Of a stretch of DNA of 64,000 nt, positions 66 through 55,600 are shown piece by piece. The stretch is taken from positions 6,800,437 through 6,864,436 of the forward strand of contig OZ029929.1 in the NCBI GenBank assembly GCA_964023275.1, given 5' to 3'. Numbering within the stretch: position 1 is the stretch's first letter; every line of letters starts with the position of its first letter. The position numbers were made by a program, and so were the translations under genes. Below the pieces are notes generated by a model, which had not been told where the DNA came from, made no database searches, and saw only the letters and a list, made by a program, of their open reading frames with translations. The DNA comes from Norana najaformis (Eukaryota; Annelida; Clitellata; Crassiclitellata; Hormogastridae).

Positions 66-10065
<10,000 letters not shown>

Positions 10066-12217: not shown

Positions 12218-12440
12218 AGCTCACCCAATTAATTCATTGAAAATGAGCAAGGTCGAGGCCATACGGTCGCTATATAAAACCGTGCATATTTACATTTACA
12301 TGAACTTTTACTGTCCTGATTAGCTGCATTGGTTACAGCATACGTCAAGGCGCCTCTGTGTGTGAGGATGCCTGTTCGGCTTCTTTAACAGATTTGAATC
12401 TCAGGTTAGCACGGTACGTACACGGGGCCTTTAAATGGCA
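12218..12440 (+). repeat. tRNA-derived SINE parts (same family as 46745-47050)
   Basis: The tail half (AATTCATTGAAAATGAGCAAGG through TTTACATTTACATG) is followed by a second head half (TCAAGGCGCCTCTGTGTG, TGAATCTCAGGTTAGCACGG). Both match the more complete copy at 46745-47050. Confidence 0.6.
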
Positions 12441-16900: not shown

Positions 16901-17050
16901 TTCCTCCTCGGGCGTCTGTCCATCCGGCGCCCCGTCCAGTCTCTCCAGCGACGTCCCCACGTCTCCGTTCGGCAGCCTTGATTCAGGAGTGCCCTTCTCG
17001 GACCCCGGAGATCCTTCCGCTTCTGTTTGCTCCGTATTTTCGCCATCCTT
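13931..17050 (-). CDS. Large disordered protein with FYQS repeats; terminal 1039-residue exon
   Basis: No family recognised. One open exon of 1040 codons begins after a plausible acceptor (GGATGTTATAG, then AAGGATGGC) at 17050, in phase 0, and ends with TGA at 13931-13933. The first in-frame ATG is at 16861; upstream exons were not found, so the start is open. The N-terminal part holds one ordered-looking block (RMTIISENIYHYVGVVSG). Then five cores of the type KMELPRFYQS recur every 52-65 residues (exon residues about 150-400), separated by KETESG/NGKTEGKT-type charged linkers; the fourth core is degenerate. Short hydrophobic strands follow (KRYTIAMTVGPRKRK, KRIVSMIYVASRRDL). The C-terminal third is Ser/Lys/Pro-rich with two TQT motifs (SCTQTPD, TATQTRS) that fit dynein light chain LC8 ligands. 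No signal peptide or membrane segment in this exon. A cytoskeletal scaffold is a guess only. Confidence 0.75.
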   Translation of the reverse strand, partial: KDGENTEQTEAEGSPGSEKGTPESRLPNGDVGTSLERLDGAPDGQTPEEEPKESPDVDEHTKRMTIISENIYHYVGVVSGREYAREKGLLPTKGEVPTAPEGFLRPQKKKKDAKGSDRKMVGEPPKPTKDEKLPKETLDAEKKEVDSQKMKMPRFYQSSNADKHKATEKSGISDSPNVHNDKIDGKKQEKDDRRKVEKMVSKPEKDDDSSKMELPLFYQSDKHKTAEEPNKSESRNLPKGETDGKTEKHKDKERVEKQSKDALESKPERNADTPSVELPRFYQSPSEDKKKVTGESGKTESPNVSNGKTEGKTREKDVKENVKKVESKPEKEANTPAMKLLQLDINNTAGKSVQSEFQNVSNGETKSKTNQKNEKLENKADKENGSPKMELPRFYPAGNTEDKKDGISKITPSAEKAAASSEPTSQPEADSDATPKRYTIAMTVGPRKRKIEDPKWKKYAVEKPVAVDRAKSDEGNTKPIEPDVEERTVQNEEQEEQTPHEDDILGSQESSDDTEPNTAQLNAAEEKEKSVRFEGSIDESTTPPTERKRIVSMIYVASRRDLTTDDPTVNAAPPESTPTPPLKPAESNTGNEDDHQDDLISLGGEELKLTTKRVHLKDSSDEEDDTVSTTPAPGQEKRQPQLSDTPGIPSEDRGPVQNSEYDVLDTGKEVVTLKAASSLYSSTPLGQSLRQRIQEVEEGAPDYEVHHLKQPVPRSPEVNLGSGKILNAPSILMASSITSSTNRQMCELLPQDTLINHVDPRTSSLKIKLAPKEVKTKPSKLVVKLNTGAVSPEDSTDSGKAPASDDVQTSKEPLVMYQPSDTKSTCDSCTQTPDVLYEDQSPGARAVRSRSVGFQCKAGDPERKTATQTRSSLPSVSRSVRPPDAEKKTKIPLASRSAHPEVSRLSKSSPLPERKTNLTRKDTSTAKSSPKAAVTNEHRNPKKLEKSRSVPAQNSPSCLGHSVTSKAAASPRVVQKKDDNKTPLHATSKSMESIPRCTCLQLPGKDSLHGEKKMSRPPANPLGLREYGFTPPSNKPHWR

Positions 17051-34041: not shown

Positions 34042-34330
34042 AAGGTTTCAGGAGATTAATTCAAAAGACTTTTAAGGTCTCAGGAGATTAATTCAAAAGA
34101 CGTCAAAGGTCTCAGGATATTAATTTGAAAGACTGTAAATGTCTCAGGTAATTAATTCAAAAGACTGTAAAGATCTCAGGAGATTAATTCAAAAGACTTT
34201 AAAGGTCTCAGAAGATTAATTCAAAAGACTTTAAAGGTCTCAGAAGATTAATTCAAAAGACTTTAAAGGTATCAGGAGATTAATTCAAAAGACTTTAAAG
34301 GTCTCAGGAGATTAATTCAAAAGACTTTAC
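34042..34330 (+). repeat. 32-bp minisatellite, nine units
   Basis: The unit AAGGTCTCAGGAGATTAATT + CAAAAGACTTTA is repeated nine times with few substitutions. It begins about 225 bases beyond the stop of the heptad-repeat gene, in its 3' flank. Confidence 0.93.
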
Positions 34331-34555
34331 GCAGAAAATGAGCAGTTTAATTTGTTTAAAGGCATCAATCGATGGTCATATTTTCAAAATGGCGTCGGTC
34401 GAAAACAATCAACTCATATAACAAGAGAAGGATATATATGCAAGAACGTCTTAGAATGAAAACTGGCATTGCAAAAAAAAACTTTACTGAATTTTTACAG
34501 ATTATTCTAGTTTCTTGAATCCATCCAGTAAAATCTTCGTTCCGGGCGCCGGAAG

Positions 34556-37500
34556 CTACTGGCGTTCGAAGCCTTTTTCGTCGGCCTCGTTGCTCTTGAG
34601 GTTCAAGTAGTTCATAATGTCTTGTATGTTTCTCTCCGTCTTATCCTTAGCTCTTGATCTCCTCTTATCTTTCAGTTCTTCCTTTGCCTTCTTATTGGCC
34701 TTTTCATTAACACCACGTGCCTCATCGCCGATTACCCCATTAACCTCTTCTTTAGTTAACTCCCAAGCGTCAGTTCCAAGCTTTGCAATATCGTCCCCCG
34801 TTTTGTCCAGAAATTCCACTGCTCCATCTCTCGTTTCGCGTGCTGTTTCATCTTTCTCGAACTCCTCTTTGGCACCCATCTTCACCTCTTCCCTGACCTC
34901 AGTGTCAGCCTCTTTCCCCATTTCCCTCTTAGCCCCATTTTGGGCCTGTCCTTGTGTCTCTTTTTTGGCCTCCATTCTCTGGACTACCTTTTCGACCTCG
35001 TCGTTGATTTCTCTCTTAGCCTCTTGCTGAGCCTGTCTCTGGGTCTCTCCTTTAATCTCAACTTTGGCCTCTCTTTCCGATATCCTCTCGAGCTCATTCT
35101 TGACTTCCGTCTTAGTCTCCTTCTGACCCTGTTTCTGGGTCTCTCCCTCGATCTCAACTTTGGCCTCTCTTTCCGATATCCTCTCGAGCTCATTCTTGAC
35201 TTCCGTCTTAGTCTCCTTCTGACCCTGTTTCTGGGTCTCTCCCTCGATCTCAACTTTGGCCTCTCTTTCCAATATCCTCTCGAGCTCATTCTTGACTTCC
35301 GTCTTAGTCTCCTCCTGAGCCTGTCTCTGAGTCTCATCATTAGCCTGCTCTTGGACTTCATGCTTTACCTCCGTCTTAGCCTCTTCTTGGGCCTGGCCCT
35401 GGGTCTTTACATTGGCCTCTCTTTGGATTACCCTCTTGACCTCATTCTTTACCTCTGTCTTACCCTCTTCTTGGGCCTGCCTCTGGTTCTCTTCGCTTTG
35501 GAATAGCCTCTCGACTACATCGTTGACCTCCCCTTTAGTTTCTTTCTGGGCTTGTAGGTGGGTCTTCCCTTCGACGTCCATTGTGGACTCTCCTTGGACT
35601 GCTTCCTTTTCCTCTCCTTCATCGTCCTTATCAGCCTCAGCATCTGCAACTCCCAGTAATTCTCTCTTTTCCACTTCTTGTTCAGCTGCCTGCGACATCT
35701 CGAAGTCCAGACAGAGCCCAGAGTTGACCGCCTGACTGTAGAGGTCTGTCTCATGACCGTACACATCGGTGCCGTTGAATCTTCGATCCTTCATCAAGCT
35801 GCAGAAACGGCTCAACTCCACCGATTCACTGTCACGTTCTGGAACACCAGAACACAATACATTTACAACAGAACGGCATAAGACAAGAGGGGTAATTGTA
35901 ATTGTAATTTGAGATTTACAAAGCGCCTCTTAGAGGATAAACTCAACAGAGGTGCTTCCGACCCGAAAGAGTAAAATCACTGTTGAACAGTACAGTCTTC
36001 AGGCGCCTGCGGAACACTGAGAGGGGGAGAGCAAGGAGCTGAAGTCGCAATTCTTGAGGGAGACGATTCCAGCAAGTGGGACCAACGTAGGTATGAAGTA
36101 ACCTCGTATTTGTATGTATGCATGCATCTATGTATGTTTACGTTCGTCGTATATGTATATGCATGTATGTGTATGTACTTATGTATGTATGTATGTATTT
36201 ACTTATGTAAGTATGTATCACTAGATTTGTATAGCGCCTTTTAAGTAACACACAAAGTCGCTACAGCACGGCTACCTAATGAACTCTAAAGAGGAACGAC
36301 TTGAGTGGAATGTGTGTATGTAAGAATGCATGTATGTGCATGAATGTATACATACATGTGTAATTTATGTCTGTATGCACGTATATATGTGTACGTATGT
36401 GTGTATGTATGTATTTATGTACATATGTATATACATGTGCGTACGTAAGTGTATGTATGTATCGATGTATGTATGTATAATGCATGTATGTACATGTACG
36501 TATATACATGTTATTTATGTTGGTAAGTATGTGTATATGTGTATTTATGCGAGTATGCGTAAGTATGTACGAGTTTCTGGTTAATTATATAGCGCCTTTT
36601 AAGAACCTCACATAAGCTTAATGATGGAATGGCAAATCATGGCATATGTCAGTTAGCCCTATGGAATGTGATGGCATAGCGTAGAATACAATACAATACC
36701 ACTAAAATTTGTTAATGCCCTCCTTACAAAGTTCAGAAGTGCACTTGAAGCCGGGTTATGCGAAGTATTAAGAACCATAAGCAGACTGGAAGAGGTAACT
36801 TTTAAAGTTAGAGCGAAAGACAGAATGGGTGGCAATGGAATAGGATAACGTAGAACAGCATGGAGTGGTTACAAATTACTAAGAATGAGGAGAGATGGTA
36901 TCTAACAAATTGGGATAGAATGAGGTAGAATATGGGTGAAATAGGATAGGATGGAATGGACTGGATCAGAATAAGGCACGCGATGTCAGACGGTTGGATT
37001 GTATATGGTAGGTCGGACTAAATCTGAACAAATTTAATCTCTAATAACTTCTATAGCGGCGTTTTCGTAATGCGCAAGGCAACAATGGAAGGTTGCTTAA
37101 GTTAAAACGTAGTAAAACATCTAAGTCAAGCTGAAATCCGTTAGGTCAATAAAAACAGAAGTCAGGTAGATGAATAAGTTGGAACAGATGAGTCTTCAAT
37201 TAAGACCTGATGAATGAGGGTAAATAACGGATAGAACGATGGCTGGAGTGGGATAAGACAGAACTGGATCAGATAACTTAGAATGGTACAGGATATATGA
37301 CGGGATGAACTGGAATCGGATGAGATGTGCTGGGATAAAGTACTATAAAGTTCTATTATGATAGGAAATATTTTAGTAAAACAATATAATTGGATGAGAA
37401 TACAATAGGCTCCCAGGAAATGAGAATGAAATGGAAACAGAATTATCATATCAGAAAGGAGAGAAACTGAGTTTCAGCCGAGATAAAGAAAATAATCAAA

Positions 37501-40500
37501 TGGAATCTGTATCTTGAAGACGAAACCCAAACAGTTCGGAACAAAGAAAAACTAACTGGAGAAGATTAGTAAAGCTGAGGACAGTCTAGAACACAACAGA
37601 AAAGTCTTAATACATCAAGCTGACCAGAAACTTCAGAATAACTTAGAACAGAACAGGAAACACCAGAACGACTAGTAAAGATACCAAAACGAGAAATGTG
37701 GGCTTACTAAGGTCCCTGCCACTTCTTCTTAAGTTTCTCCTCCTCCTCTCTTCTTCTTCTTCTTTTTGCATTTCTTTCGCCTTGTGAAGCGCCTGAACCA
37801 CTTCTTCTTCCAGCTTCGGAGTCCCTAGGGTCTTCATTACCCTGTCATAGACCTTTTCGATGAGCAGATTCGCCAGCTCCCGCGAGATGGCGTCCTCATC
37901 AGCCTTGTCCGTCGTATCCTCGCTTGCTGTAGCCTCGCGCCTCCGACGGGTCAAGATGTACCCCGGATTGTTGCCGAATATGTAATCCTCGTAGCCCAGT
38001 CGCTTCCGTAGATGGCTCGTTTCCCGTTTCCTCTTGCTCAAGTCTTCCTCGTCCTTTTCCTGCTCCTCCTGTCCGACCTCCTTATTAAGTTTCTCGGCGA
38101 GGCGCTTGAACTTCCTTTCCTCTGAACCACTGTGGCGTCTCGCTCTCTCATCGCGGTACTTCGCCTGGAGGTGTGTCCTGCGGTTCATCCTGTCCGCTGA
38201 TCGCTTACTTCGGAGTCCGATTGGTTTCTGCTCACCTTTAGGGGTATCGTGCGACGACACGTCCCTGAATTCCATCTGCCCTTGTTCCTTTTTCCTTCCC
38301 TGTACTGTTCCGTCGTACTTCAACTTCTCGGCCGCTGTCTCTTCCAGCTCAGACTTTCCCGATGATTCGGCGACGCCCTTGTTTTCCAGGCCAAAGACAT
38401 CGGCGACTGCGTGCAGCACTTTTCGCATCGCTTCGCTGTTCTTTAGCTTCATGCCCGGTTTCAGTTGTTCCCAGAGAGATCCGAGATAGTCGAGCTCCGA
38501 CATAATATTTTCCATCTCAGTAGACATTGCACTTTTGACCTCTCCTCTGCCTAAGGTCGAGTTCGGGTCTAGGCCTACCGTATCGTTTGCGCTGACAGAA
38601 GAGTCGGTTTTCTCTGTTGGTGTGTCCTTGGCTTGTTTAGACACGGCTTCATCTTTCGCCGAAGTGTTCTCTGCTTTTGCAGACATGTCCTTTGCATTTT
38701 TAGACACGTCCTCTTGTTTGTGTGCTGCTATTGGTATTTCAGCTGCATTCACAGGGATATCATCTACGCCTGCGGGGATATCCTCCGCTTTAACACGAAT
38801 ATCATTTGTTTTTACAGGAACATCCGTTGCTTTCCTATGACTATCCTTTGTTGTGCCCTGCACTGTAATAGGGACACCTGTTGACGTCAATCTAATGTCT
38901 TCTGCTTTCAAATCAATAGCCTTTGTACTGGTATGGGAGTCCTCTGCTTTCGCAGGTGTGGCGTTGGCTGTCACAGGAATATCCTTTGTGTGCATCGTAA
39001 TGTCCTTTGCTTTAAGAGGAATGTCCCTTGCTTTCACATAAACAGTTTTTGCGTTCACAAGGATACCCTTTGCTTTCACAGGGATATTTTTCGCTTTTAC
39101 AAGGACGTCTGTTGCTTGTAACTTCAGTGGAATATCCTTTGCTTTGACATACATGTTCTCTGCTTTCTCGTGAATTTCCTTTCCTTCTTCTGAGAAATGC
39201 TCTTCTTTTTCCGCATCATTTACTGGACTATATGAAGTGCCTTTTACATTTTGTGGTGAACTGTCCATTGCTTTAGAATTTTGGTCAAACTTGTGTTGAC
39301 CCTTCATTAAACTGGCCACCCGACGGTCTCTCTCAGAACTGGCGCTTCCATTTGTTGAAGCAACATTCGTGCTTTCTTCTCTGGCTTTAGTATTTTCACT
39401 TGTTTGATTCACTGCAGCTGAAGTGCCTCTTTCGTCACTAGTATAGTTCTTCACTATATCAAAACTAGTTTTTGCATCGTCAAAAAGATTCTTCACTGCT
39501 ACTAAAGTTCCGTTTTCCTCCGTGGAAAGTCCAGTCTCTGCACTTTTATTTGCATATGCTTTCGGGTCCTTGACATCTGTTGAAACGTCCTTTGATTCTC
39601 CTAAGCTGTCCATAATTTCATCTAAGCTGTTTTCTGAAACCCTTTTAGCTGCTTCTGAAAAGTCTGTCTCGTCGGAGATCAACTCTTCTGGTGTTTCAAT
39701 GGCGTTGTCATAACTTCGGAAAAGGGCATTCAAAATTTTGGCAAAGAACCCCGAATTTTCGTCAGAAGAGGATGAAATCTTTGATCGTGAGTTTTCCGTA
39801 AGTAAGTTAGAAGATGACGAATCTTTTGAATCTGAATTCGTCTCCTTTGAAACGAGAGGCGTATTTGTTGTGCTTGAAATGGAACTTGGCTTCACTGACG
39901 CAGAAAGTGGTGGAAAATCACTGACGACTGGTGTTTTTGGAATTCCAGGAGGTACTTTCGTATCGGTAACACGTTCTTCTTTTGAAGCGACAATGTTTGT
40001 CGTTGAAGTGACGGCTTCTGCCTTTGAAGCGAGGTATCCAGAGTCCAAGATTTTAGCCCTCGGAAAGATGCCCTTCGCCACAAGCGTGGCCTGGATCCTG
40101 ACTGGTCGTGCCTTTGAAATGACAGATCTGAACACTTCTGCTCCTGAATTGATCCGTTTTTCTTTAGAAGCAGCATGCCGAATCTTTACCTCGGACTTAT
40201 TCTCTGCTTCTTTTTCCTGCTCAAACTTCGAAGCTTGCCACTCTGTTTTTAAATCGACATCATTTTTCGTCGATCCTGGCTGCCGCGCAGCCTTGAACCT
40301 TTGTTGACGTTTGTTCGAGAGCAAATCAGACACTTCGAAAGCATCCAGAAATGCATAGAGACTCTGCTCTACGGGAAGCTGGTCATGTGACTGAATAACC
40401 TCCCGCCCATCAGCGGCTAGGCTCTCTTCTGACCACTGAGACTCCAGTCTGTTGTTTTCCGCCCTCGTCTTTTCCCTCTGCGGCCATGGCTCCCCGTCCT

Positions 40501-41729
40501 CAGTGGCTGATACTCTGGATGCAGGTCTGTATTGGTCCGTGGATACTAGGAACAGTTGTTGGAAATCCTTTTCCTCTTCTGCGTTCTGTCTTCGCTCGCC
40601 CATGTTCATGACCTCTCCCTTGTCCTGAACCTTGACCTTTAGATCTGTAGTTCCTCCGTCACTGGCACCTCTTCCGCTGGCATTTCTGCCACTGCAAATG
40701 TAAATGTACACGTTTTTCTATAGCGAATGTATTGCCTGGACCCTGCTCATTTATCAATGAATTCATCGGATGAGATCCTTCACCACCGCTGCCCGTCTGA
40801 ATGGGCGCCACGCCATCTAAGGTACCCGTTTACGGCCCGAGGTTTAAATCTCTAAAATATAGCCACGATCGGTATGCGAACCGGCATTCTCACGCTCTGC
40901 AGAGGCGCCATGACTTACGCTTAACCAATGTGGCTAAACAGCAAGGTCGTTTAATAAACCCCATTACTAGTAAATCAGTCCTGTCTTGCAATGATGATAT
41001 CGAGCATACGTTTAGCATACATTAAGACATCCATTCAAAAATTCCCCAGTTCAGACACCTTCAAAGTACCCCATTCCATTGCATCATTGCATGTAATCCA
41101 AGTTATGGCCTTCACTATACAAAATTTGAAGGAAATTTCATTACATCAGTAGAAAACATTTCTATAGAGCTACCTCAAGCACCCACAACTTAACTGATGC
41201 AGCACCCCGTTCTGTCATAAGTCTCAAACTACTACTTGCATGGCGCAAGTGATACAGATAATCCAAGTTTTGGCCTTCATTGTAAAAGTGTTAAAAGAAA
41301 ACATAGGCCTACTTCAAACACCCAAAACAGCTATAACAGCTATTGGCTGTTTGAAGTAGCTGCCGTAGTGGTTTTATGGAAATAAATTTAAGGGCTTTCA
41401 TTACACGGCACAGGTTGCGTTACTAAGGAAGTCCTAAATAACAATGCAATATGAAACCGCCCTTCATTTCAAATCTAATTACATTAGGAACATGAAGTAC
41501 TCGAACTTGGCGAACATAATATATCCAAATTCGCAAAGTGTATACAGTTTATATATTCAGTGTTCATAACGGTCGTAAAAAATTCGTTTTACAGAACTCG
41601 TAATTCTTACCAGCTGATGGGAGAGCCAGTTTCAGAAATGCAGAGATTTCTGGCAACCAGAACGCACGCAAAGAAGCCACAGATAATAAGCTCTATGTAC
41701 AGGATACGAAACACGAGCTCCGTTGGCAT
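34556..41729 (-). CDS. Secretory precursor with heptapeptide repeats, furin-type sites and charged repeat tail
   Basis: No family recognised. Three exons, high to low: 41729-41611, 40691-37708, 35838-34556. Junction phases (2, then 1) agree, giving about 1461 residues. Exon 1 encodes a signal peptide (MPTELVFRILYIELIICG, then FFACVLVA). Exon 2 is almost cysteine-free, has many N-glycosylation sequons (NYTS, NQTS, NGSA, NDTV, NSTL) and about 24 imperfect heptapeptides of the form VKAKDIP (residues about 553-738). Basic cleavage sites follow: RSKR (867-870), KRKR (926-929), LRKR (934-937) and RRRR (955-958); the last two enclose LGYEDYIFGNNPGYILT. Exon 3 carries Lys/Glu/Gln-rich repeats of 32 residues (EREAKVEIEGETQKQGQ, then KETKTEVKNELERIS), probably helical. 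Donors are CAGCTG|GTAAGA and CCTTA|GTAAGC. If the second intron is not spliced, the frame ends in a hydrophobic tail at 37643 (1055 residues). The gene model rests on phase and motif only. Confidence 0.72.
35891..36094 (-). mobile_element. L2-like LINE 3' tail
   Basis: (GTAATT)n, GAGATTTACAAAGCGCCTCT, TGCTTCCGACCCGAAAGAGT and AGTCTTCAGGCGCCTGCGGA match the tail of the copy at 25455-26090 closely, implying a younger insertion. It lies in intron 2 of the heptad-repeat gene. Confidence 0.85.
36095..36580 (+). repeat. GTAT-type degenerate microsatellite
   Basis: GTATGTATGCAT-like units surround a LINE-tail-like TATAGCGCCTTTTAAGTAAC at 36230. Frames in both directions are Tyr/Cys/His/Thr low complexity. 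Confidence 0.9.
36590..37640. other. Rest of intron 2 of the heptad-repeat gene
   Basis: Degenerate GGATAGAATGG-type sequence fills 36700-36980 and 37210-37440. A LINE-tail-like block (CTTCTATAGCGGCGTTTTCG, GCGCAAGGCAACAATGG, CAGATGAGTCTTCAATTAAG) is at 37030-37200, related to 48950-49320. No gene is seen. Confidence 0.5.
37643..37707 (-). other. Alternative hydrophobic C-terminus by intron read-through of the heptad-repeat gene
   Basis: Beyond the donor at 37707/37706 the exon 2 frame stays open for 21 more codons: SKPTFLVLVSLLVVLV, then FPVLF and stop. A hydrophobic C-terminal end after a Ser/Gly/Asp stretch (RRSGRDLS) resembles a GPI-anchor signal or tail anchor. Either the intron is real and this is chance, or two isoforms exist. 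Confidence 0.45.
40750..40955 (-). repeat. tRNA-derived SINE, minus copy
   Basis: TGAGATCCTTCACCACCGCT, GGCGCCACGCCATCTAAGG, ATGCGAACCGGCATTCTC and CAGAGGCGCCATGACTTACG are the reverse complement of the SINE at 46745-47050. It lies in intron 1 of the heptad-repeat gene. Confidence 0.8.
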
Positions 41730-41959
41730 TTTTGCCTCAAAAAACACGTTCTTTGAAGACAAACCCGTTGTATATTGCAATATTTAAAGTTGTCCTTAAT
41801 ATATTATCAACCTAAATAGTATTTTTGTAGTATGCCGTCAAATAAATAGCAAATCTGTAGTCCGTCTCATACGAATAAATAGCAGTGATTCAGATAAACA
41901 ACGGTTGCTGAATTACGTCAATTTTTTGTGACGTAATCGCCTTGCCATTTAAATGAACG

Positions 41960-43420
41960 CCGTTTTTTTCTTCTGGTTCTCTGCCCTCAGGCAGGTTCAA
42001 GTCCGTTCGTAATCGTAATCGTAATCTCGAGATTTCTACAGCGCTCAACGAAAGCTAAGTCGCGGGAACCAGCTTATTCACAGGCGCTCAGTCAAAACAA
42101 AATCGATAGGCAAAAGGGTCAAGATCCAGGAGTCAGGCACTCAGACAGTCGGACGGCTACGGTGGATGCTGTTTGAAATTGAAGCGAGAAGAGAGATAAG
42201 AGGAAGAGGAAGAATCAGGATAAGATTTCTGGAAAAGAAGTGTTTTCAGTCTTGAGTGAAAGACCTGCGCAGAAACTGAAAGAGGTGAAGTGTTGGTGAG
42301 TTCGTATGATTGACCAGACAACTGTCGCAATTCTGGCGGGAGTTTATTCCAAAGGGGTGGGGCAGCTATGGCTATCGAGCGATTTCCAAATTTTAAGGAT
42401 GAGGTGACGGGAGGGCGAAGAAGTGTTAGGACAGATGAGGAGCGGGTTGAACGGAGTGGTTGGATAGTAAATAATTGACGAAGATAGGAGGGTTGGGAGG
42501 ATTGAAGTGTGTTGTAGGCGAGGGATAAGACCTTGTACTCTATTCGTTCTGGTATTTTAAGCCAGTGCAGTGATTTGAGAACAGAGGTGATGTGATGGTG
42601 TTTGGGGGTTTTGGTGACAGCACGTGCGAGAGCATTCTGGATAGCTTGTAGGCGATTTATCTGGGTTGTGTCAATATTGAGGAAAAGTGAATTGCAGTAG
42701 TCAAGTTTTGCATGGACTATGGATGTGGCAATGATAGATGCGGTTTTGAAGTCAAGCATAGGACGGATTCTGCGAAGGTCGCGGATATGCATAAAGCAAG
42801 AGCGGGAAAGATGGGTGATATGATCAGAAAAAGTAAGGTTCTGGTCGAAAATAACTCCTAAATTACGGACAGAAGAGTTAGTATTAAATGTGTGGGTGGA
42901 GGCAGAGTCCAGGCTGAGGGAGATAGAGGGGTCAGGAATTTTCTTGAGCTGGTCACGTAGGCCGATAAGTATGAATTCAGTTTTAGATGGGTTCAGGCAT
43001 AAGAGATTAGATGTCATCCAAGAGGAGATTTGTTTAACCACACAAAGAAGATGATCTGTAGATTCACTGAAACAATTTGGAGAGAAAGAGATGAATAGTT
43101 GGGTGTCATCAGCATAGAGGTGATGGTCAACGGAGGATGCTTTAATGAGTGAACTGAGTGGGGTAGTGTAGAGGATAAACAGAAGAGGTCCAATACGGAG
43201 CCTTGTGGAACTCCGCAAGTGAGAGGGCATGACTTAGAAGAGGCTTCCGAAGTTTTAACAGAGAAAGAGCGGGAGGAGAGATAAGTCCGTTGATGCCACT
43301 CCTCTCGGTGCTCAGCTTCTTCTTTCAGCCTGCTGTATCCATCCGTTATAATCTAATCCAGCAGCATCTGTCTGGGTCTTCCTCTTGTCCTCCCCCTCCA
43401 TTCTGCCCTTTAACGCTCTT
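41960..43420 (-). mobile_element. RTE-like LINE fragment split by a nested LINE
   Basis: Sequence at 41960-41998 (CTTCTGGTTCTCTGCCCTC) and 43292-43420 (TCTTTCAGCCTGCTGTATCC, TCTGGGTCTTCCTC) corresponds to consecutive parts of the RTE-like piece at 19470-19800. The L2-like LINE at 42008-43282 sits between them. Confidence 0.65.
42008..43282 (-). mobile_element. L2-like LINE, 5'-truncated, with reverse transcriptase C-terminal half
   Basis: A 358-codon frame (42157-43230) encodes YADDTQLFISF, the reverse transcriptase active site, then LCLNPSKTEFILIG, NLGVIFDQNLTFSDHI, VHAKLDYCNSLFLN and PPLWNKLPPELR. The preceding CGVPQGSVL box is one base out of frame with the rest, so one frameshift is visible. 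A 3' region of about 150 bases ends in (ATTACG)n. Flanking AAGTCCGTT at 41999-42007 and 43283-43291 is a 9-bp target-site duplication. It is the best-preserved LINE in the window. Confidence 0.9.
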
Positions 43421-43744
43421 TAATTTTTTATAATATTAGTGAGGATGATTTATTTAGGGCCTTTCGCATATGGGTTTACTCAGTCAGTTTAATTCTGCAA
43501 GTCTGTTATGTAACCTACGTGAAGCTCTTTGAGAAGTGAAGGAAACTACTCGCAAAGATTAAATCTTCTGAATCACTTAAATGTTAAAACCCGTTAGGCC
43601 TATATGTAATGCTACTTTAGGCCATAATTGTTGTTTATGTATATAGGCCTGTGTCCACGTACGTAGGATTATGGGCATAGACATACTTCGACCGATTACT
43701 TGCTTCGAAATGTAATTAATTATGACAATTATCTTACCCATCCT

Positions 43745-43995
43745 ACTAATTAACCAAACATTCCTCTCACAGATCCTATACCCTCCTTCCTCTTATCTCT
43801 CTTTCCGCTCAAATCCCAAACACCATTCACCGTAGCTGCCACGCCGTCTCTCTGCCTGACTTGAATTTTGACCTGAAACCGAACACTTTTTGCCTATCGA
43901 TTTTGTTTTGACTAAGCTCCTGTGAATAAGCTGGTCCCCATGACGTGGTTTTCGTTGGGCGCTGTAGAAATCTTGGGATTACGATTACGATTAAT
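43745..43995 (+). mobile_element. L2-like LINE 3' tail
   Basis: CCTCTTATCTCTCTTTCCGC, GAATTTTGACCTGAAACCGA, CTATCGATTTTGTTTTGACT and GGGCGCTGTAGAAATCTTGG follow the tail of 42008-43282 in plus orientation, ending in (ATTACG)n. Confidence 0.8.
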
Positions 43996-44034
43996 TCACC
44001 TAACACTTAACCCGTTGCAATCTCTACGCAGGTC

Positions 44035-44285
44035 TTTCACTCAAAACAGTCCTCTTCCACAAAATCCTATCCTGATTCTTCCTCTTCCCCTTATCTCTCT
44101 TCCAATCCCAACAACCATCCACCGTAGCCGTCTGACAGTTGGCCTGCCTGACTCTTAAATCTTGACGTAGAACCGAACCCTTTATGCCTATCGATTTTGT
44201 TTTGGCTGAGCGCCTATGAATAAGCTGGCTCCAGCTACTTGGCTTTCGTCCGGCGTTGTAGAAATCTCGCGCTTACGTTACGATC
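44035..44285 (+). mobile_element. L2-like LINE 3' tail, second copy in the same orientation
   Basis: It repeats the order seen at 43745-43995: CCTTATCTCTCTTCCAATCC, GCCTATCGATTTTGTTTTGG, GAATAAGCTGGCTCC and GTTGTAGAAATCTCG. The two tails are about 40 bases apart. Confidence 0.8.
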
Positions 44286-44351
44286 ACTCTTTAATACTAA
44301 AGTTCTTTGAAACACAAAACGGAAGTGGCTTTTACGCATGCGTTGATTTAG

Positions 44352-44365
44352 GTATCCTTAGCAAC
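44352..44365 (+). promoter_or_regulatory. RFX X-box-like site
   Basis: GTATCCTTAGCAAC fits the X-box consensus GTNRCC-N(0-3)-RGYAAC with one mismatch (T for R). RFX factors drive motile-cilium genes, and DNAI2 follows. It lies about 105 bases before a good splice donor (TTTTCAG|GTAAGT at 44469/44470). Confidence 0.45.
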
Positions 44366-44379
44366 CGTGGGCACTTGGA

Positions 44380-44469
44380 GGTTGTCATCATAAAAATTCG
44401 CGAAATAAAAGTGTGTGAAGTTTGTTATCGGCGAATAATTAAGTAAATAGATATAAAAAAAGTTTTCAG
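44380..44469 (+). other. Possible non-coding first exon of DNAI2
   Basis: The DNAI2 start codon lies one base after a splice acceptor (TTCCTTAAACAG|C at 46148/46149), which implies a spliced upstream leader. The donor TTTTCAG|GTAAGTAACG at 44469, downstream of the X-box-like site, is the best candidate I saw. Its left boundary is not defined by the sequence. Confidence 0.4.
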
Positions 44470-45269
44470 GTAAGTAACGAATAATTGCATTACCTTAACT
44501 AATGTTTGTGGATTTGTCTGCGCGTTTTATTTAACAGATTTTTGAGAACAACCTTCTATATGTATCAGATCCAGGACAGATGTGAGAAGTTTGCGTAGGA
44601 TCTTCCAAGTTAATAGGAACTGTCAAATTATTGGGGTGTAAACTGGGATTTAACGAAGCTTTGAGTCCATTTTGAATCCGCAGCCTTGTGGCAGGGGCGA
44701 TGCCATACGGTAGCTATAGAAAAACATGTACATTTACATTTACAAGACTAAAAAATGATCTGAAAAAGCCTGTATAGCCCCCCTACTTATTATGCACTAG
44801 GAATAAATCAGTAGCCATTTTAAAATAAAACAAATATATATAAGACATTAATGTGCCAGGCGTCAGAATTAATTCGCAGGCCGTTTGGGTCATGAATTGA
44901 CTTGTTGTAACAAACGCATTTTAAATGCTAAAAGGATAAGAAAGGTAAAGGTAAAATAGTCGCTCATTTGTTACTTTCCTTTTTCAACAACAGTATAAGC
45001 ATGGTGCTGGGATTGAAGGAGCTAAATGCAAACATGACAGCAGCAGTCTAATGACTGGGCAAGCTTTCCACGTGTGTTACAGGACTTAACAGTGAATTTC
45101 ACTTGATGCACTTGTATTTGAACCCTGGATGCAGAGGTGAAATGCAAACAGATTAACAGTTGGTTTCACTTATTAAGAAAACTAGACTATTAATAGGTAC
45201 TCAGTAAAGGCAAAATGAACAAGGCAGATTAGGTCCAATTCAGTAAACTGTAAATGCAATTTGGAAATT

Positions 45270-45460
45270 TCAACATTGCCTAAAAATGCATAGCTGCAGG
45301 AACCAGCTTATTCACAGATGCTCAGACAAAACAAAATCGATAGGCAGGTAAGGTCAGGTTCGGTTTCAGGTCAAGATCCAAGGATCAGAGTGGTAGATAA
45401 TCATATGGAAGCAGTGGTTTGGTTTTAGAATTGGAGCAGTGGGATAGATGAGGAGAAGAG
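45270..45460 (-). mobile_element. L2-like LINE 3' tail, diverged
   Basis: AACCAGCTTATTCACAGATG, CAAAACAAAATCGATAGGCA and GGTTTCAGGTCAAGATCCAA are the reverse complement of the LINE tail. Confidence 0.7.
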
Positions 45461-45993
45461 GAGGATTTGTTTAAGCAGAATATTAAGAGAAGATTTGTTT
45501 ATGTTTATTTTGGAGAGTAAGATAGACTGGTGCACTGGTATACTGAATATTGTTTTGTAAGCCAAGGACAAGAAATGAAATCTCAATAAAGCATTTTGAA
45601 ATGCAGTGTTTCAGTTCGACTAAAAGAACAAGAGGAGTTTTTTGAAGTGATAATGGGTTACTGGTTGAACTAGCTAATAAGCTGGTCTTTCTGATGTAGC
45701 TTTTGTGTAATGCTGAGAAGTTTTGGAGATTTGCATTAAATTTACATTTAAAGAAATATTGAGGGATCAATTCAAAAAGGAATGGCTCAGGCCAGCAACA
45801 ACAGAAAAATTTCAGGCAGAATTTTTTAAGAATATGAAATAGTTTAACATAAAATTATTTCTTTGTGCAAATAGAATTACATTAGTAACTTTAATAAAAA
45901 TCCATCGATCAATATAAAAAACACTTGCTATATCAATTGTCTAGCATACAAATCTTAGTGAAATTTGTTTTTTTTTTGTAAAAAGTAGTAAAT

Positions 45994-46112
45994 CGTAGTA
46001 GTAGTAGTTCCAATGTTTAACGACATCTTATGCCATCAAAGGCCGTTGACATTGCCCTCCTCCTTTAACCAGGCTTGGGACTGGCACCACCCCATTAAGG
46101 GCAGTGGTGGAG
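45994..46112 (+). mobile_element. 121-bp SINE-like element just upstream of the DNAI2 first coding exon
   Basis: CAATGTTTAACGACATCTTA, GTTGACATTGCCCTCCTCC and CTGGCACCACCCC match 8006-8126. Its right end is about 37 bases from the splice acceptor of the first coding exon. Confidence 0.8.
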
Positions 46113-46148
46113 TTAGTAAATTATACTTAGTGTTTATTCCTTAAACAG

Positions 46149-49100
46149 CATGGAGATAACTTACGTCTACACGAAGAGGCGCTCGGAGTTTGGGCGTCAG
46201 GTAAACTTCTCTGATCGCCCAGCTGAGTTGCACTGCGACATCTCACCCGACCCAAACCTCAGCAGCAATTTTATCGAGAGAAATCCTGTCGACACCGCAT
46301 CACAAATCGGAGCTGAAATGTCAGAACACGAGGCAAGTGACAAACTTCCACACTGTAATGTAACCAAGCATTTATATAGCACCTGTAAAGAATTGCAGTA
46401 CCCAGTGGCTTTCAATGCATTACAGATTCATTAGTATGTAACGTAATAATTATTTTGTATAGCAGATGTTCAGAATATCTGTGAGTGCTCAGAGTCAGGT
46501 TGCGGTTTGTGGCTGGAAGCAGTTTGGGAAAGACCTTTACGTTGGAGCCTGATGACTGGAAATAATGGACGATGTATTGCGCCAGTGAGGGCAAATTTCA
46601 GCTTATTCCTGTACAAGTAGGACCAGGACTACTTCCGGTCATGCCCTGAGCAAGTAGAATGGTCTTCACTTTGAGGCAAAAGCTGCCAGTAGCACCTGTT
46701 GGACTCAGATGCTGATGATGATTCAGTCAACAGAGCTAAACACTTGTGCATTAAGGGTTGACTAAAGCACCAGCCTCAAGGCAGGTACACTGCGCTAGTT
46801 GGCTACACTGGTTAAAGCATACATCAAGGCGCCTCTGTGCACGAGGATGCCAGTTCGTATACTGATCGCGGCTATATTTTAGAGATTTAGATCTCTGGCT
46901 AGCATGGTCCATACACAGAGATCTGAAAAGGCGTGGCGCCCATTCAAACGGGCAGCAGTGGTGAAGGATCTCACCCGATAAATTCATTGAAAACTTAACA
47001 GGGTCGAAGACATATGGTCGCTATAGAAAAACATACATTTATATTTTACATGAAAAGCCTAAAGCCTCAGCCAGACTCCATGTCTTGTGAATACTGTACT
47101 TGTGCACTTTGTAATTTTATGTACATCAAATTGAGTATTTTTAGAGAGCGCATCCCATGAAAAATGTCAGTGCAGGTCATGAGAGTACTGGTGCATTTCA
47201 TTGCAAGTTTTGCAATTGATTATCGTTGATTGCTTTCTGATCTGCCCTTGCTGAGGCAGTTTTATGCTAACGAATATCTAACAATTTTATTCCTGGAATA
47301 TGGATATTGGGCATGTGTCTGTGGATTGTAGGTAAACACAATTGTGTATGACATGGACAATCGAGGCGTACATCACACGGAAGGGGGCTGGCCCAAGGAT
47401 GTTAATCCGCTAGAAATTGAACAAGTCATGAGGTATAGAAAGAAGGTCGAGAAAGATGAAATGTACATCAATACCATCATGGGTCTGTCAACGGTAAGTC
47501 TAGTCTGCTTTGGTCTCGTCTGATCCAGTTTCATCTGGTTTGATTTGGTTTGGTCTTGTCTGACCTTTTCTAATCTGGTCTGGTCTTTTCTTATATGATC
47601 TAGTTTGGTTGGTTTGGTGTGGTTTGGTTCAGTATTATCTGATCTGGTCTGGCTGTCTGGTCTGTTTTGACCTGGTCTGGTCTGGTTCATCCTGACCAAT
47701 CTGTTTAGTATGGTCTGTGTATTGTTTCTTTAGTCTAGTCTAGTCTAGACTAGGCTTATTCAGGGTTAAACTTGTATAATTCTGTTTTGAAACTGATAGT
47801 CTAATCTCATTTAGTTTAGTGTAATCTAATATGCCCAATCTCATATAGTCTAAGTGAAATTTCGTTGAGTACCCCTTACAGATATTTTTTAAAAATCTGT
47901 ATCAACTTGCGGAATTGTAATGCAATTGAAGGTTAAAAAGGAAAATAATAATTAGCAACTTCTAATGCGCCGGTGTCTAATGCACAAGGCGTCAACCGAA
48001 AATGTGAGTCCTTGTGATTTTCAGTTATAAATATGTTTGTGTTTTTGAAATTGTTGACCAGTAAAGAATGAGGTATATATGGTTAATTGTATATCCACGT
48101 TTTTATGTGTTTACTCCATTGCCAAGACTTCAAATTCGAAAATTCGACCTGACTTCTACAGGGGATTATGGTTTTGATTACAATTTCACTTGAAATGACC
48201 ATCAGTTGATGCCTTGGGCATTAGGATAACAGCACCATAGAAGTTACCAGATTAGATTAGAGATTTGCTGTGAGATTCATCACTTGTCCTAAGAAAATGA
48301 ATGAATGCCTTCCATACATTCTGATGTGGAACATGAGAGACTGCTTTTGCAATGGCTGTGGACTTGCTTTCGTTATAAGTTGACATCGTGGAAAAGATTA
48401 GAGTGAAATCTAATGTTTGCTTTGCTCAGGTGATGGAGAGCTGCATAAAGCAGAACAACGCGATAAATATCTATGAAGATTACTTTGGTGACGTCAGTGG
48501 TGGGTCATCGGTTGAACCTCCATGCGGAAAAACCATCAACATATTCAGGCAAGATTCCAGTAACGATTTGTTGCTTATATTGACCAACCGATTAAACAGT
48601 TGATTTGTTTGATTGATTGATCAGTCTTTGATCAGATCAATGAATTGATCTCCTGTTGATCAAGCAAATTATCAAGTTATTGCTTTATCAATCATTGATT
48701 AGTCAGTTGATTATTTGGTTGGTTGGTTGGTGACGTGGGTGGCCAGCTGATGAATTGTTTTCTTCTGTAGGGATCCAAATGAGATAAAGAGGACTGCAGC
48801 ACACATTTCTTGGTATCCTGATGGACCAAAGAAGTTGGCAATTGCCTACTGCAACCTCGATTTCCAGGGTTCAGCCCCAGACTCAAACATGGAGTCATAT
48901 ATCTGGGATATTGGTGAGTTACGACAACTGAGAGTTCTAATCTGATCTAATCTAATGACGTTTATAGCACCGTTATCATAATGCCCAAGGTATTAAGTAA
49001 AAATCACAATTCAAAATCATAATCCGTTGGAGAAGCTGGGTCAATTCTGATAGGTCAGAGAAACCGGAAGTTAGGCTACAGTGGGTAAGCAAGCTGAAAC

Positions 49101-49650
49101 AGATGAGTCTTGAGTTTAGACCTTAATGACATTCTTAATTCTTATAATACTATAAGAATTGACCGAACGAATAGAACTTGGCAGTGAACTCCAAAGCCAT
49201 GGACCAGCAACCGTGAAGGCCCGAGAGCCCAGTACAGTTCGGGTATGGGGCACAGCAAGAGTAATGGTGTCCATTGATGGAGTGCAATATTTGTTGGTAT
49301 GTGTGATGAGCATGGAATGTAGACTGGTTGGCTGGTTTAAATGTAGTACTTTCGGAGTTCAACTTTCAGCTAATGTATTGTTATTTGTGCTGTCAATGAT
49401 GTGAATGTCATTGCTGGTGATTTGAGCCTCTCTTCATGTTAAATATGGTTGGTTCTTAGCAGTGTGGACATGATACTGGAAAGCACCATGAAGCAAAGCA
49501 AAGTTGAGCATTGGCTACTTCTTATTTACATGTATTATGTTGCTATTCTTACTTTAATAATACAATATTTTGGAATAATAGTTGATAGTATGTTATTGTC
49601 CAGAACACCAGACTTGGTGCCACTTTGCGAATAGGCCAACACTGACATGT

Positions 49651-49684
<34 letters not shown>

Positions 49685-52600
49685 GACAGACAGACAGGGA
49701 GTAATGAAGTGTGTCACATCAGTTAGTCATATAAATAACCAACACAATGGATTATGACAAGTAAACTGTGGTTTTTCTTGTGTTGTGCTTTTAGAAAATC
49801 CAAATAAACCCGAGACGACGCTGAAACCGGCCTCTCCCCTTGTCTGCATCGAATATAACCCGAAAGACTCGCACGTCCTCATTGGTGGACAATACAACGG
49901 TCAGATCGTGTTCTGGGACACCCGTAAAAGCTCCCAGCCGTGCGACATGACCCCCGTGGAGCGGAGTCATCGTGACCCAGCTTACAAGGTCATCTGGGTG
50001 CAGAGCAAAACCGGAACAGAGTGCTTCTCTGCTTCTTCGGATGGTCAGGTACTCGGATCAGTATTTCAAAGCGCCTTCAGCAAGGTCCCCCCACGGCAGC
50101 ACATATGAGACATAACCACCTTGTTAAATAGCTTAATCTAAACACGTCGACAGACTTTCGTAGTGCTCACCGCTATCCTGAAGGCAGCAATTGTTGGTCC
50201 TTTCAATGAAACTGCAGTCCACAATCTGTTGCAGAAGACTGGTAGGTCCAGTAGGTTGTCTGTCATTTTATTCATCTTATTTTGGTTGGATTATCTTGTC
50301 TTGTCGTTTAAGATGATAAAATGGCTACAGATGGTTCAGTGAGATAAGACAGGATAAGCCATTATCTTTTCGTATCTTAGCTTATTTTGCCCTGTCTTAA
50401 CTTAACTTTTTCTTATCTTGCATGCCGGACAGTCAGCTGTTAGGCTGGGTGTTCAAATCTCTGCCAGAGGGAAAGACAGCATAAGACATGTCATCCATTT
50501 GTGTTTCCTAGCTAACTCCACTGAAGAGTGAGTACATTGACTGTCCACTATCAGATGGTGATGAAAGGAACTGGCCACATACCCTCACATGTCAAGGCTA
50601 AGATAAAAGTGAAGTAGCTGCCTTTCTGGATTAGCTTAGGAAAGGCCTGCTCTGCTCTTCTTCATTTCTCGTTCTTCTCATCTGTGCTAAGTTATCCTGT
50701 CCTTATTTATCTTACCCTAACTTATTATCTGCATTTTGTAGGTTCTGTGGTGGGACACAAGGAAGCTTGGTGAACCAACCGAAGTTATGTATCTTGATCC
50801 GACGAAGAAGCAGGACTTTACAAAGGCCCATGGTGCCATGTGCCTTGAGTATGAACCAACTATAGTGAGTCTTATGACCTTTGGCCCTTCTGACCTTTTC
50901 TTGACCTTCTAAGGCTATTGAAATTATGGACTGAATTGCACTGGATTAGACTGAACTAACTAGACAGTATTAGATTCAACAAGATTTCACCAGACAAGAT
51001 ACAGCTAGTCTAGATGCGATTTTTTTATTGGTAGACTGGAATGGTTAGTACTGATTATGAATCCTAATCTAAGATAGATTAGATCTTACACAGATTGTAT
51101 TAATGTATGCATAACCACTGGGTTACTGATGAATTTTAAGCAGCCATTAAATCACTTTGCAATTCTCTTAGCAATATCAGAAACCTATGTTCATTTATTC
51201 ATTCATTCAGTCATTCATCTTGATTTATTTATTTATCCCAACATTTGACACAGATACAAAATTTAACATGCAGTAAACAGGTCATTACGTTACAAAGAAC
51301 AGACCCACAATAGACCATATCTTGTTCTGCTTTATTAGATGGGGCTGAGTCTTAACAAGCATCGCAGACCCACAAGAGACCATATATTGTTCCGCTTTAT
51401 TAGATGGGGCTGAGTCTTAACAAGCATCGCAGACCCACAAGAGACCATATCTTGTTCTGCTTTATTAGATGGGGCTGAGTCTTAACAAGCATCGCAGACC
51501 CACAAGAGACCATATATTGTTCCGCTTTATTAGATGGGGCTGAGTCTTAACAAGCATCGCAGACCCACAAGAGACCATATATTGTTCCGCTTTATTAGAT
51601 GGGGCTGAGTCTTAACAAGCATCGCAGACCCACAAGAGACCATATCTTGTTCTGCTTGATTAGGGCTGCCTATTAAAAAGCATTGCAGCACATTTCATCT
51701 TTCTGATTTGCAGCCAACAAAGTTCATGGTTGGCACAGAACACGGAACTATAATGTCGTGCAATAGAAAGGCAAAAACGCCAGCCGAGAAGATCGTGGCT
51801 GTCTACCCAGGACACATCGGACCCGTCTACTCGCTTCAGCGCAACCCGTTCTTCCCAAAGAACTTCCTCTCTGTTGGCGACTGGACTGCACGGGTTTGCA
51901 ATAACTATGACAATAACTGCAACAATAACAGCTGATACTGTAGCAACACAGCATTTCAATGGTGCACCTTTTACTTGTTTAGTGACCAGTAGCAATTATG
52001 TAATATTGTTAGACGAGGAAAGCCAAGTTAGTACAGCAAGAATTAAGTAACAGCAACACTAACATCAACAGTGTCAACAATTATGACAAATTTCAAGAAC
52101 TTCTGCAGTGCCTGCATAATACTGCACAACCCATCAATAAATGTTGACTTCTAGTTAAAAATCAATGTTTACGTAAATGCTTGGTCAGTCTGGTTGAAAC
52201 CCTTAAGGACAATCCAATTTTTGGACATTGAAACGGCTGACAGGCAAAAGGAAGTGACAACCTAAAAATGACGAGTTTTCTCGATCATCTGATGATCTGT
52301 ATGGAAGAATTTTTGACCTTACTTTACCTTATGTCACCTGTTACCCTACCTGGCATAGTTTGGAAGGGGTTTTGGCTTACCCTGCAGTTAGTTTGATAGT
52401 ATTCATCATCTGACAGACACTGTTAGCTTTTTCAGTGGCTCCACAGAAGTTAGATTCAATTATTTTTGTTTAATTTTTTATCAGATCTGGTCTGAAGACA
52501 TTCGAGAGTCATCTATCATGTGGACCAAGTACGTATACCGTCAGGATTCCATGTTTTTTCGTCTGAAGATTTTTTCTAGCCACCGGACATTTTGGGTTCC

Positions 52601-55600
52601 TTCTCCCAGCTGTGTGTATTATTTAAATTATGTAACTAGTAAATAAACTTATGTTTGTCTTTTCGTTCCTAATCACCTTCATCTGTTGTAGTTTCTCCTG
52701 GAAATTTATGCTCTCTGCTACCAAGTTGTAATTTAATAATTTATACAAACAATCTTGAGCTACTTCTGTGGAGCTAAACTGAGCAACTTTGTGAACTTTA
52801 TTTTGATAAAAGATTCAACTGATATGGAAAACTTTAACTTTTAAAGTATGAAGACTTTCTCTTGAATGACAACTTTACAAGACTGCACAGGCAAAACTGC
52901 ATTAGTTGACAATAAAATCAAATCAAATAGTTTCTTATTGACCACCAACCTATCTATAATCGTAATAATTCAAACTGTTATAGTGATGGCTGATGTTGAT
53001 AGTGGATATGAACAAAGTCGTTAGATCCCAGGTGCACCACTGACCACTGGTTGATGCCTTGTTCAACTTTCTAGATTAGTTTCTATTTTTTGAATTTGTC
53101 TTTTGTTTCTTTTCACATTTCCATTGTGTTTTTTCCCAGGTATCACATGTCCTACCTGACGGACGGTTGTTGGAGTCCAACGCGGCCATCCGTGTTCTTC
53201 ACAACGAAGATGGATGGAACATTGGACGTTTGGGATGTCATGCACAAACAGAACGATCCCGTTCTCAGCCTACAGGTGTCATATCATACTTTGCTGTAAT
53301 AGATTCTAATGTTGAATAATCTTAAGTTTTTCTTCTGTTTATTTTATGTTATCCTTTCTTAATGTATCCTATGCTGCTCCATCGTATTCGATCAGATCTT
53401 ACATTTAGCCTAACTATTCTAGACTAGCACATCCTTGCTTGTTGTAATCTAATCTTTACTGTTCTAGCCATACCGATCAAATCCTGCCCTACGTTACTGT
53501 GTTGTTCTGTCGTATCATACCTTCTATTATTGTATCCTACCTTATCACGAAGGTAAACAGGCCATCTATTGTCGGTAAAAAAGTGCCAAGGGAGGTTGTT
53601 TTGTAGTGATTGCTGTCGTTTTGTAGTGATTGCACGTGTCTGAAAAAATTCCTCTAACTTTGATATCATGATTCCTATGAGTTTCAACAGAGGCACATAA
53701 ATAAATGTATTGCTTTTACCTGTATTTGTTACTCTTGTAGTCTACAAAGGTATAGTGTTGCTAACAGGTTTGTGACGAGGCTCTTCACAGCATCAGAGTA
53801 CAGGAACAAGGGCACCTCGTTGCCACTGGCTCCCAGAATGGAACAACCACCCTCCTCGAACTTTCCTCGGGGTTAACTGTCATTGAACGAAATGAAAAGA
53901 ATGTCATCTCAGCAGTCAGTATAATTTTATGACCACAAATAATACTTCACTCCTTATAAAATAACTCTGCATTATATTTTATAACTAGAAAGCCAATCAA
54001 TGGATTATGGGCTTCAGGTTATGATAAATTCAGTGAAAATGAGCAGGGTTAAGGTCGCTACAGAAAATCGTGTACATTTATATTTACATTTACAAATGAG
54101 TATTTTGAAGCACTGTACTGTTGTATTGAGCCATTTTATTCCTGACGTAGTGGCTCTCAACTTGTGTACATGTATGTGTACATAGCCGAACATTTTAATG
54201 TTTGCTTCTAAGAAATTGTGCAAGGCATTACTAGCTTAAATGATGTTAGAATTAAGTAAGAACAAGTTAATATGTAAGCAAATACTGGAAAAGTCACCAC
54301 TGATGAGCTCTCATTTGCATGTAGAACACAACCAAAGGCATTTTAACATCATGCTCAGAATTCCTGGTCTGTACTTCTGAAGTGATGTGTGTAGATATAC
54401 ATACATATGTATATGTATATATATAAACATTTATATAGTGCATTTAAGAACCTCACAATGATCTATATAAACTGATGATTAAACTACCACTAGAATGCTT
54501 TCTTATAATAATAATAAAGGAAACCTCTTAGTAATTGTTTGACAAAATAACATTAATACTAATAACACAAGAAATGTTACGGTACTAAAATTTATTACTC
54601 AATCAGATCTTTGAACGAGAGACAAAACGAGAGAAAATTCTGGAGTCACGACACAGAGAAATGAAACTCAAGGAACGGACGAAAAGCCAACTGGACAAAG
54701 ACAAAGTAAGAAGAACTCCATATTATTTTCACCTTTTAAGATTTTGGCTTTGATAAATATGTGTAATTTCTTAATAATAACTGTGCTTTTGTTTGAAATA
54801 ATTACTATATTTGATTGTTGTATTGTTTTCATCTTTTAAGATTTTGGCTTTGATAAATATGTGTAATTTCTTAGTAATAACTGTGCTTTTGTTTGAAATA
54901 ATTATTATATTTGATTATTGTTAATGTCATTCATTATTTTAATCATCATATAATTTTATTAATGTTGTTACTTATATATTTGGTTATACAATGAATATTA
55001 CTAATACATAAATCAGCATTCATGGTGGCTTGTTCAAGTGGATATGAAGTTAACAAGCAGTGAAGTTAAGCAGCACTCGGCGCTGTTAGTACTTTTTCAA
55101 CTACAATTACTTGTTCAGCTGATGGACATATGGCATACTACAAATGCATTACTTACTTACTATGTGGATGGGTTACCATGTACTTAATTCCATCTGGACC
55201 AATTTGGGCGGCAAAGCTCAACACCTTCAGTTTTAGGAGTACAATGATAAATTTGAAGTTAAAAAGATTTCCTATTAATAGATTATGCAATGGATGGGAC
55301 TTATTTTCAGGCCTTTTTAATATATTGTTAAACTGATGTGAAGTTAATAACGTACATATTTTGAAAAACTACACTTACTGATAATTACAGTATGGAGAAT
55401 TGTTGATGTAATATGCTGTAATAGTATATAATATATAATATATAATTCCTCACTCAGCTGAAGAACACATGGTGTGTTAACAGATGTCTTACTTACTTAC
55501 TTACTAATAGTAAAAACTGTGCTGCAGTTAGCCATTTTGAGCAGGAAATGTATACATGTGCCATATGCTTCTAAAGGCATTGTGTTGTGATTGCAGAAAT

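Follow-up and report, generated by a model that had tools for sequence, protein, structure and literature searches.

What does the long repeat-built open frame on the minus strand of a 64,000-nucleotide stretch of Norana najaformis DNA encode, and where does its product end? The stretch, here called the window, spans positions 6,800,437 to 6,864,436 of contig OZ029929.1, and all coordinates below count from its first letter. An earlier reading, made from the letters alone (the sequence-only reading), had joined three exons between 41729 and 34556 into one secretory precursor. We give a probability of about 0.4 to a different account: that this is one animal gene, probably lineage-restricted, encoding a largely disordered protein of the secretory pathway with two alternative C-termini. 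The signal peptide would come from exon 1, as would, across the splice, a pair of cysteines (C30 and C40); exon 2 would add a long charged stalk, part of which would have arisen by growth of a 21-bp (heptapeptide) repeat. Isoform A (1055 residues) would run through exon 2 to that exon's own stop, and its tail would tether the protein to the membrane, either as a glycosylphosphatidylinositol (GPI)-addition signal or as a transmembrane segment at the end of the chain; cleavage at the basic convertase-type sites next to the tail could set the stalk free. Isoform B (1285 residues) would arise by splicing from 38235 to exon 3, which would remove both the basic sites and the tail and give a soluble protein whose repeat tail is charged and probably helical.

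The repeat-built frame and its possible ends

The frame of exon 2 comprises 1024 codons. When the 8-kb region was shuffled 200 times by dinucleotides, the longest frame averaged 132 codons and never exceeded 208. A length so far in excess of chance indicates that the reading frame is real. When a codon-usage score trained on 40400-38600 was applied to parts of exons 2 and 3, exon 1 being left out, the claimed frame ranked best over the scored parts. Joining the three exons as the sequence-only reading had done, with phases 2 and then 1, gave an open frame of 1461 residues, which bears out the consistent phasing it had claimed. The description of the product as nearly cysteine-free was also accurate: it has 6 Cys, two of which (residues 17 and 22) fall within the N-terminal hydrophobic segment.

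The tandem heptads and tandem 32-mers reported in that reading are both real. Lag-7 identity over residues 541-740 gave z = 9.4 and lag-32 identity in exon 3, where the repeats are rich in E, K and Q, gave z = 12.4; among lags of 1 to 40 the strongest were 7, 14 and 21 in the heptad region and 32, 4 and 28 in exon 3. A weaker 7-residue signal (z = 3.8) extends over residues 40-540 and the 21-bp self-match of the DNA is raised mainly around residues 200-450, so that much of exon 2 may derive from growth of the 21-bp repeat. The lag-21 DNA match at codon positions 1, 2 and 3 was 0.521, 0.590 and 0.415, against expected values of 0.345, 0.315 and 0.264. Since position 3, though the most diverged, also has the lowest expected match, these values do not prove selective constraint on the heptads. 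In exon 3, a 96-bp array of 3.4 copies with 94% matches differs little by codon position (0.629, 0.642 and 0.582). Immediately beyond the putative poly(A) site of exon 3 lie nine copies of a 32-bp tandem repeat (34042-34329); the number shared with the 32-residue repeat is, we think, a coincidence.

Exon 1 encodes a signal-peptide-like segment, MPTELVFRILYIELIICGFFACVLVA, which is followed by RN and reaches a best 13-residue hydropathy of 2.98; by our reading of the (-3,-1) rule, applied by eye, signal cleavage is predicted after A26. The exon 1 donor is one of three scoring above 4.5 in 40700-49000 (8.3 kb). We scanned both strands of the 64 kb for signal exons, requiring an ATG followed within 35 residues by a hydrophobic segment, and a donor with a score above 3. 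The scan returned 21 candidates in all phases, only 6 of them in phase 2 (2 on the minus strand). Exon 1 was the only phase-2 candidate on the minus strand in 40700-50000, and it precedes exon 2 by 0.9 kb in the correct phase, where about 0.06-0.09 phase-2 candidates would be expected by chance within 2 kb upstream. This low chance rate gives the secretion signal moderate support, and a secretory-pathway precursor, as had been proposed, appears the likelier reading of the product.

The exon 2 acceptor at 40691 has the top score within 40760-40000, and it coincides with the end of a dispersed repeat that closes intron 1. This repeat matches 46799-47046 with 76% identity over 253 columns, and shorter pieces of it occur at 12220-12300, 12316, 54023-54088, 44691-44744 and 59803. 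Because the acceptor stands exactly at the repeat's end, the exon 2 boundary may be recent or wrong. A fragment of a non-long-terminal-repeat (non-LTR) retrotransposon (RVT_1, E = 1.6e-8) occupies 42157-43233 on the minus strand. Within intron 2, the stretch 36091-35892 is 95.5% identical to 25660-25461, which by eye resembles the end of a second non-LTR family.

At its 3' side exon 2 had been cut at a donor at 37707, and its own stop (37643), which follows a hydrophobic tail, had been overlooked. The donor at 37707 is weak: its score lies within the top 9.7% of minus-strand GTs and is fourth (tied with the third) among the 31 phase-1 GTs of exon 2. We simulated 40,000 random continuations under each of three local composition models and scored the 17-residue mean hydropathy; a tail of at least 3.0 before the first stop appeared at rates of 1.5e-4, 7.5e-5 and 3.3e-4 (Markov). 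T occupies the second position in 15 of the 17 tail codons, compared with 6/17 and 7/17 at the other positions (hypergeometric P = 7e-4), and past the stop (37642-37400) the bias by codon position is gone (0.43, 0.48, 0.47). We regard the exon 2 tail as probably coding. With respect to GPI anchoring, a signal-like segment and a hydrophobic tail, both unlikely by composition, are present, the addition site being judged by eye only. A basic cluster, EERRRRNLRRSGRDLSKPT, precedes the tail.

The best internal donor of exon 2, at 38235, is in phase and better than 37707; it too had been overlooked. Its score is reached by 13 of 3445 minus-strand GTs and it is the sole donor in exon 2 scoring 3 or more. 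Its phase fits exon 3, and the runner-up at 38208 (2.97) is also in phase 1. The splice to exon 3 gives a product of 1285 residues in which the signal segment is followed by 4 Cys arranged as two pairs. On the exon 3 side, the acceptor at 35838 (1.59) is the best in 35935-35500, and the 32-residue repeats are preceded by two Cys at a spacing of 30 residues, which flank a single sequon.

The segment that this splice would skip is where the basic sites cluster: 14 [KR]R pairs against 7.1 expected (P = 0.003) and 4 R-X-[KR]-R sites against 1.06 (P = 0.017), compared with 5 [KR]R against 5.2 over residues 41-858. It holds 14 of the 19 KR or RR pairs of isoform A (residues 27-1055). Over residues 27-1461, [KR]R pairs number 27 against 15.9 expected (P = 0.001) and basic pairs of all kinds show no enrichment (36 against 41.2); among the parts tested, the [KR]R excess is clear only in residues 860-1110 (17 against 7.0). 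An open frame beyond chance, a rare signal exon in phase, locally best acceptors at 40691 and 35838, the tail, the phase of donor 38235 and the concentration of basic sites in the segment unique to isoform A together argue for alternative C-termini, and anchored and soluble ends are the likeliest of the arrangements considered, ahead of a single 1461-residue product. The product may work as a charged stalk, surface-tethered or released. The fuller proposal, in which one transcript yields either a tethered, sheddable protein or a soluble protein with a helical tail, so that splicing would set whether the stalk is retained at the cell surface, we consider doubtful.

Table. Features of the repeat-built locus, in window coordinates (a slash marks the exon-intron junction)
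Feature	Position	Strand	Remarks
Exon 1	41729-41611	-	119 nt; start codon with A at -3
Exon 1 donor, CTG/GTAAGA		-	phase 2; score 4.81, top 1.1% of GT
Intron 1	41610-40692	-	
Dispersed repeat, by eye like a short interspersed nuclear element (A- and B-box-like)	40693-40937	-	last ~245 bases of intron 1
Exon 2, sequence-only reading	40691-37708	-	2984 nt
Exon 2, extended to its own stop	40691-37643	-	putative isoform A, 1055 residues with exon 1
Heptad region	38591-39175	-	residues 546-740; consensus close to VKA[KE]DIP; 21-bp DNA repeat
Best internal donor, AAG/GTGAGC	38235 (last exonic base 38236)	-	phase 1; score 7.07
Segment with clustered basic cleavage-like sites	37709-38236	-	residues 859-1034; in putative isoform A, skipped in B
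Donor of the sequence-only reading, TTA/GTAAGC	37707 (last exonic base 37708)	-	score 0.18
C-terminal hydrophobic tail, FLVLVSLLVVLVFPVLF	37646-37696	-	then stop TAA, 37645-37643
ATTAAA, possible poly(A) signal	37033-37038	-	~605 nt past exon 2 stop; hexamer only
Exon 3	35838-34556	-	1283 nt; stop at 34556
ATTAAA, possible poly(A) signal	34346-34351	-	~205 nt past exon 3 stop; hexamer only

Competing readings of the locus

Several observations weigh against a secretory gene with two ends. Donors as strong as 38235 occur at 0.2 per kb, or about 0.6 per length of exon 2, and one third of these would be in phase; at that rate the donor alone proves nothing, and its link to exon 3 is plausible, not shown. 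Acceptors at 36016 (8.17) and 36006 (5.16) far outscore 35838, although they precede the stop that bounds the exon 3 frame at 35929, and the 30 codons directly upstream of 35838 also score as coding-like; where exon 3 begins is therefore uncertain. A Glu interrupts the hydrophobic stretch of the signal peptide, and its residue at -3 is a Leu. Among all real frame ends of at least 17 residues in the window, the tail's hydropathy of 3.18 is reached by 9 of 2458, the tail being one of them (most of the remaining 8 are L/I/V runs resembling simple repeats), and a value of 2.3 by 8 of 1204 on the minus and 12 of 1254 on the plus strand, so that hydrophobic ends are commoner in real sequence than in the simulations. 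By eye, the GPI addition site seems mediocre. The cluster EERRRRNLRRSGRDLSKPT would face the lumen, and, except where the tail serves as a GPI signal and is cleaved off, it would better suit a cytosolic tail-anchored protein. Finally, the N-glycosylation sequons that had been called many number 12 against 9.7 +/- 2.9 expected, and a fraction of 0.27 of shuffles reaches 12; they stand at chance level and the argument from glycosylation fails.

The same evidence can be arranged in other ways. In the sequence-only reading, 37707 is spliced to exon 3, the product is one soluble secreted precursor of 1461 residues and the hydrophobic tail is no more than a chance translation of intron sequence. Its joints are in phase, it shares the locally best acceptor, the basic sites would serve as precursor processing sites, and the DNA turns T-rich by eye from 37707 (the first 66 bases of the intron are 45% T). 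A donor scoring as low as 37707 sits poorly with this, as do the chance of about 1e-4 for the tail in the simulations and the confinement of its T bias to the second codon position. The frame it described stands; since its donor is weak and exon 2 appears to end in a hydrophobic C-terminus, the single product is in our view unlikely. Alternatively, the locus may hold two genes, with exon 2 (with or without exon 1) complete at 37643 and exon 3 belonging to another gene with other 5' exons. The tail and stop of exon 2 and the ATTAAA hexamer after each stop agree with such a division. The phase of exon 1, which does not fit exon 3, speaks against it, as does the failure to find any phase-1 combination of ATG, hydrophobic segment and donor in 35800-42000 (non-hydrophobic first exons were not sought), and we hold a second gene to be improbable.

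A further alternative is a cytosolic tail-anchored protein. Its translation would begin within exon 2, at M68, exon 1 being a chance hydrophobic frame, and its tail would insert post-translationally with the Arg-rich flank left in the cytosol. Such a flank fits the positive-inside rule; chance-level sequons, low Cys content and an exon 2 acceptor at the end of a dispersed repeat are likewise as this protein would have them. A signal exon by chance is unlikely, however, the minus strand holding 2 phase-2 candidates in 64 kb, and codon usage supports the frame over 40691-40401, the first 27 codons of which precede M68. We therefore rate the tail-anchored protein as distinctly unlikely.

If the reading with anchored and soluble ends is true, the locus would show a compact orphan protein made by expansion of 21-bp and 96-bp repeats, with a secretion signal and a choice of ends, and one of its exon boundaries would lie at an apparent mobile element. 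Otherwise it is an ordinary gene, probably lineage-specific. The locus also carries a caution: long open frames in repeats, joined over weak splice sites, may create products that do not exist.

Family searches and neighbouring genes

Pfam searches returned no family at E <= 1 for the whole 1461-residue product and none near its curated cut-off for pieces of exons 2 and 3 (E <= 10), HMMER filters dropping most matches above 0.1 and so limiting both listings. The segment-wise searches, which the sequence-only reading had suggested as a check, upheld for the parts covered its statement that no family is recognised. Weak matches to LEDGF (E = 0.016), LmeA (0.073) and CBM64 (0.14) were all far below curated cut-offs and were rejected. 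Sequence searches of the PDB gave no match for residues 1-504, one without meaning (E = 1.1) for the middle of exons 2 and 3, and four for exon 3 (E >= 0.11) that we took as compositional. A 279-residue query from the C-terminal part of exon 2 gave 11 pattern matches in viral contigs and 28 in prokaryotic genomes, of which 0 were confirmed. We call the protein an orphan in the sense that no known domain was seen in the Pfam, PDB, viral and prokaryotic collections, the last two searched with this one part of exon 2; animal relatives lie outside that search.

Single-sequence structure models of exon 3 (predicted local distance difference test, pLDDT, 64.9; predicted template modelling score, pTM, 0.19) and of residues 756-1055 (pLDDT 56.5, pTM 0.22) were mostly helix, at low confidence. 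The one Foldseek match of the exon 3 model in the PDB (E = 9.4) was discarded. In the literature searched, the letters of the repeats and the tail matched no text, and no relevant paper was found on heptads with GPI or on anchored/soluble splicing.

The repeat-built gene lies on the minus strand between two sets of exon-like frames on the plus strand. Those at 1466-7819 resemble, by eye only, a membrane guanylate cyclase, with a kinase-like part followed by two motifs. Those at 49758-53296 give a joined translation matching axonemal dynein intermediate chain 2 (DNAI2; best PDB chain, E = 2.7e-74), which implies motile cilia in the host; the C-terminal part of DNAI2 may lie in a Glu-rich frame at 55591-55893. 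A minus-strand frame of 1039 codons at 13931-17050 encodes a second protein of high charge and low complexity, in which [LM]P[RL]FYQS-like motifs recur, and had no match at E <= 1 in Pfam or the PDB.

Comparison with known systems

Granins (chromogranins and secretogranins) combine a signal peptide, a disordered charged chain, a Cys pair near the mature N-terminus and dibasic sites. The predicted product resembles them in the first three features and may do so in the fourth, and differs in its hydrophobic C-terminal tail and its heptad and 32-mer arrays; a granin-like way of working would apply at most to the soluble form. Membership of the Granin family was rejected, as neither the Granin nor the 7B2 profile appeared in the Pfam searches of the whole product (E <= 1) or of the exon pieces (E <= 10). 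The available part of one paper mentions a sea urchin relative of secretogranin V (7B2), which has no bearing on this gene (PMC6209648).

A neuropeptide precursor was also considered and rejected: the best-flanked peptide between basic sites, LGYEDYIFGNNPGYILT, lacks an amidation Gly and occurs as a single copy in the product, and four overlapping pieces of it were absent from the literature searched. For the repeat part of exon 3, a single alpha-helix domain was rejected on its i,i+4 pairs, with 19 attractive against 24.5 expected and 45 repulsive against 25.2 (z = 5.0). Like LEA-like charged repeat proteins, to which the sequence-only reading had compared it, the product is charged, Cys-poor, repeated and, in the low-confidence exon 3 model, helical. 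Its periods are 7 and 32 (sub-period 4) and not 11, with no 11-residue repeat, and no LEA profile matched the whole product (E <= 1) or the pieces (E <= 10); the LEA-like assignment was dropped.

Secreted, disordered, repeat-rich proteins are apparently discussed in shell-matrix proteome papers, as far as their available parts go (PMC6003135, PMC9365450). The likeness to such lineage-specific low-complexity matrix proteins lies in those three properties; the sequences are uncompared, and neither a mineralised tissue nor the same taxon has support here.

Acetylcholinesterase has alternative C-termini, a GPI-anchored 'H' form, a helical 'T' form and a read-through form. Neither a sequence relation to it nor a catalytic domain was found in the present product, and the switch proposed here is only inferred. 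What the two would share is the idea: one body given an anchored or a soluble helical end by splicing or read-through.

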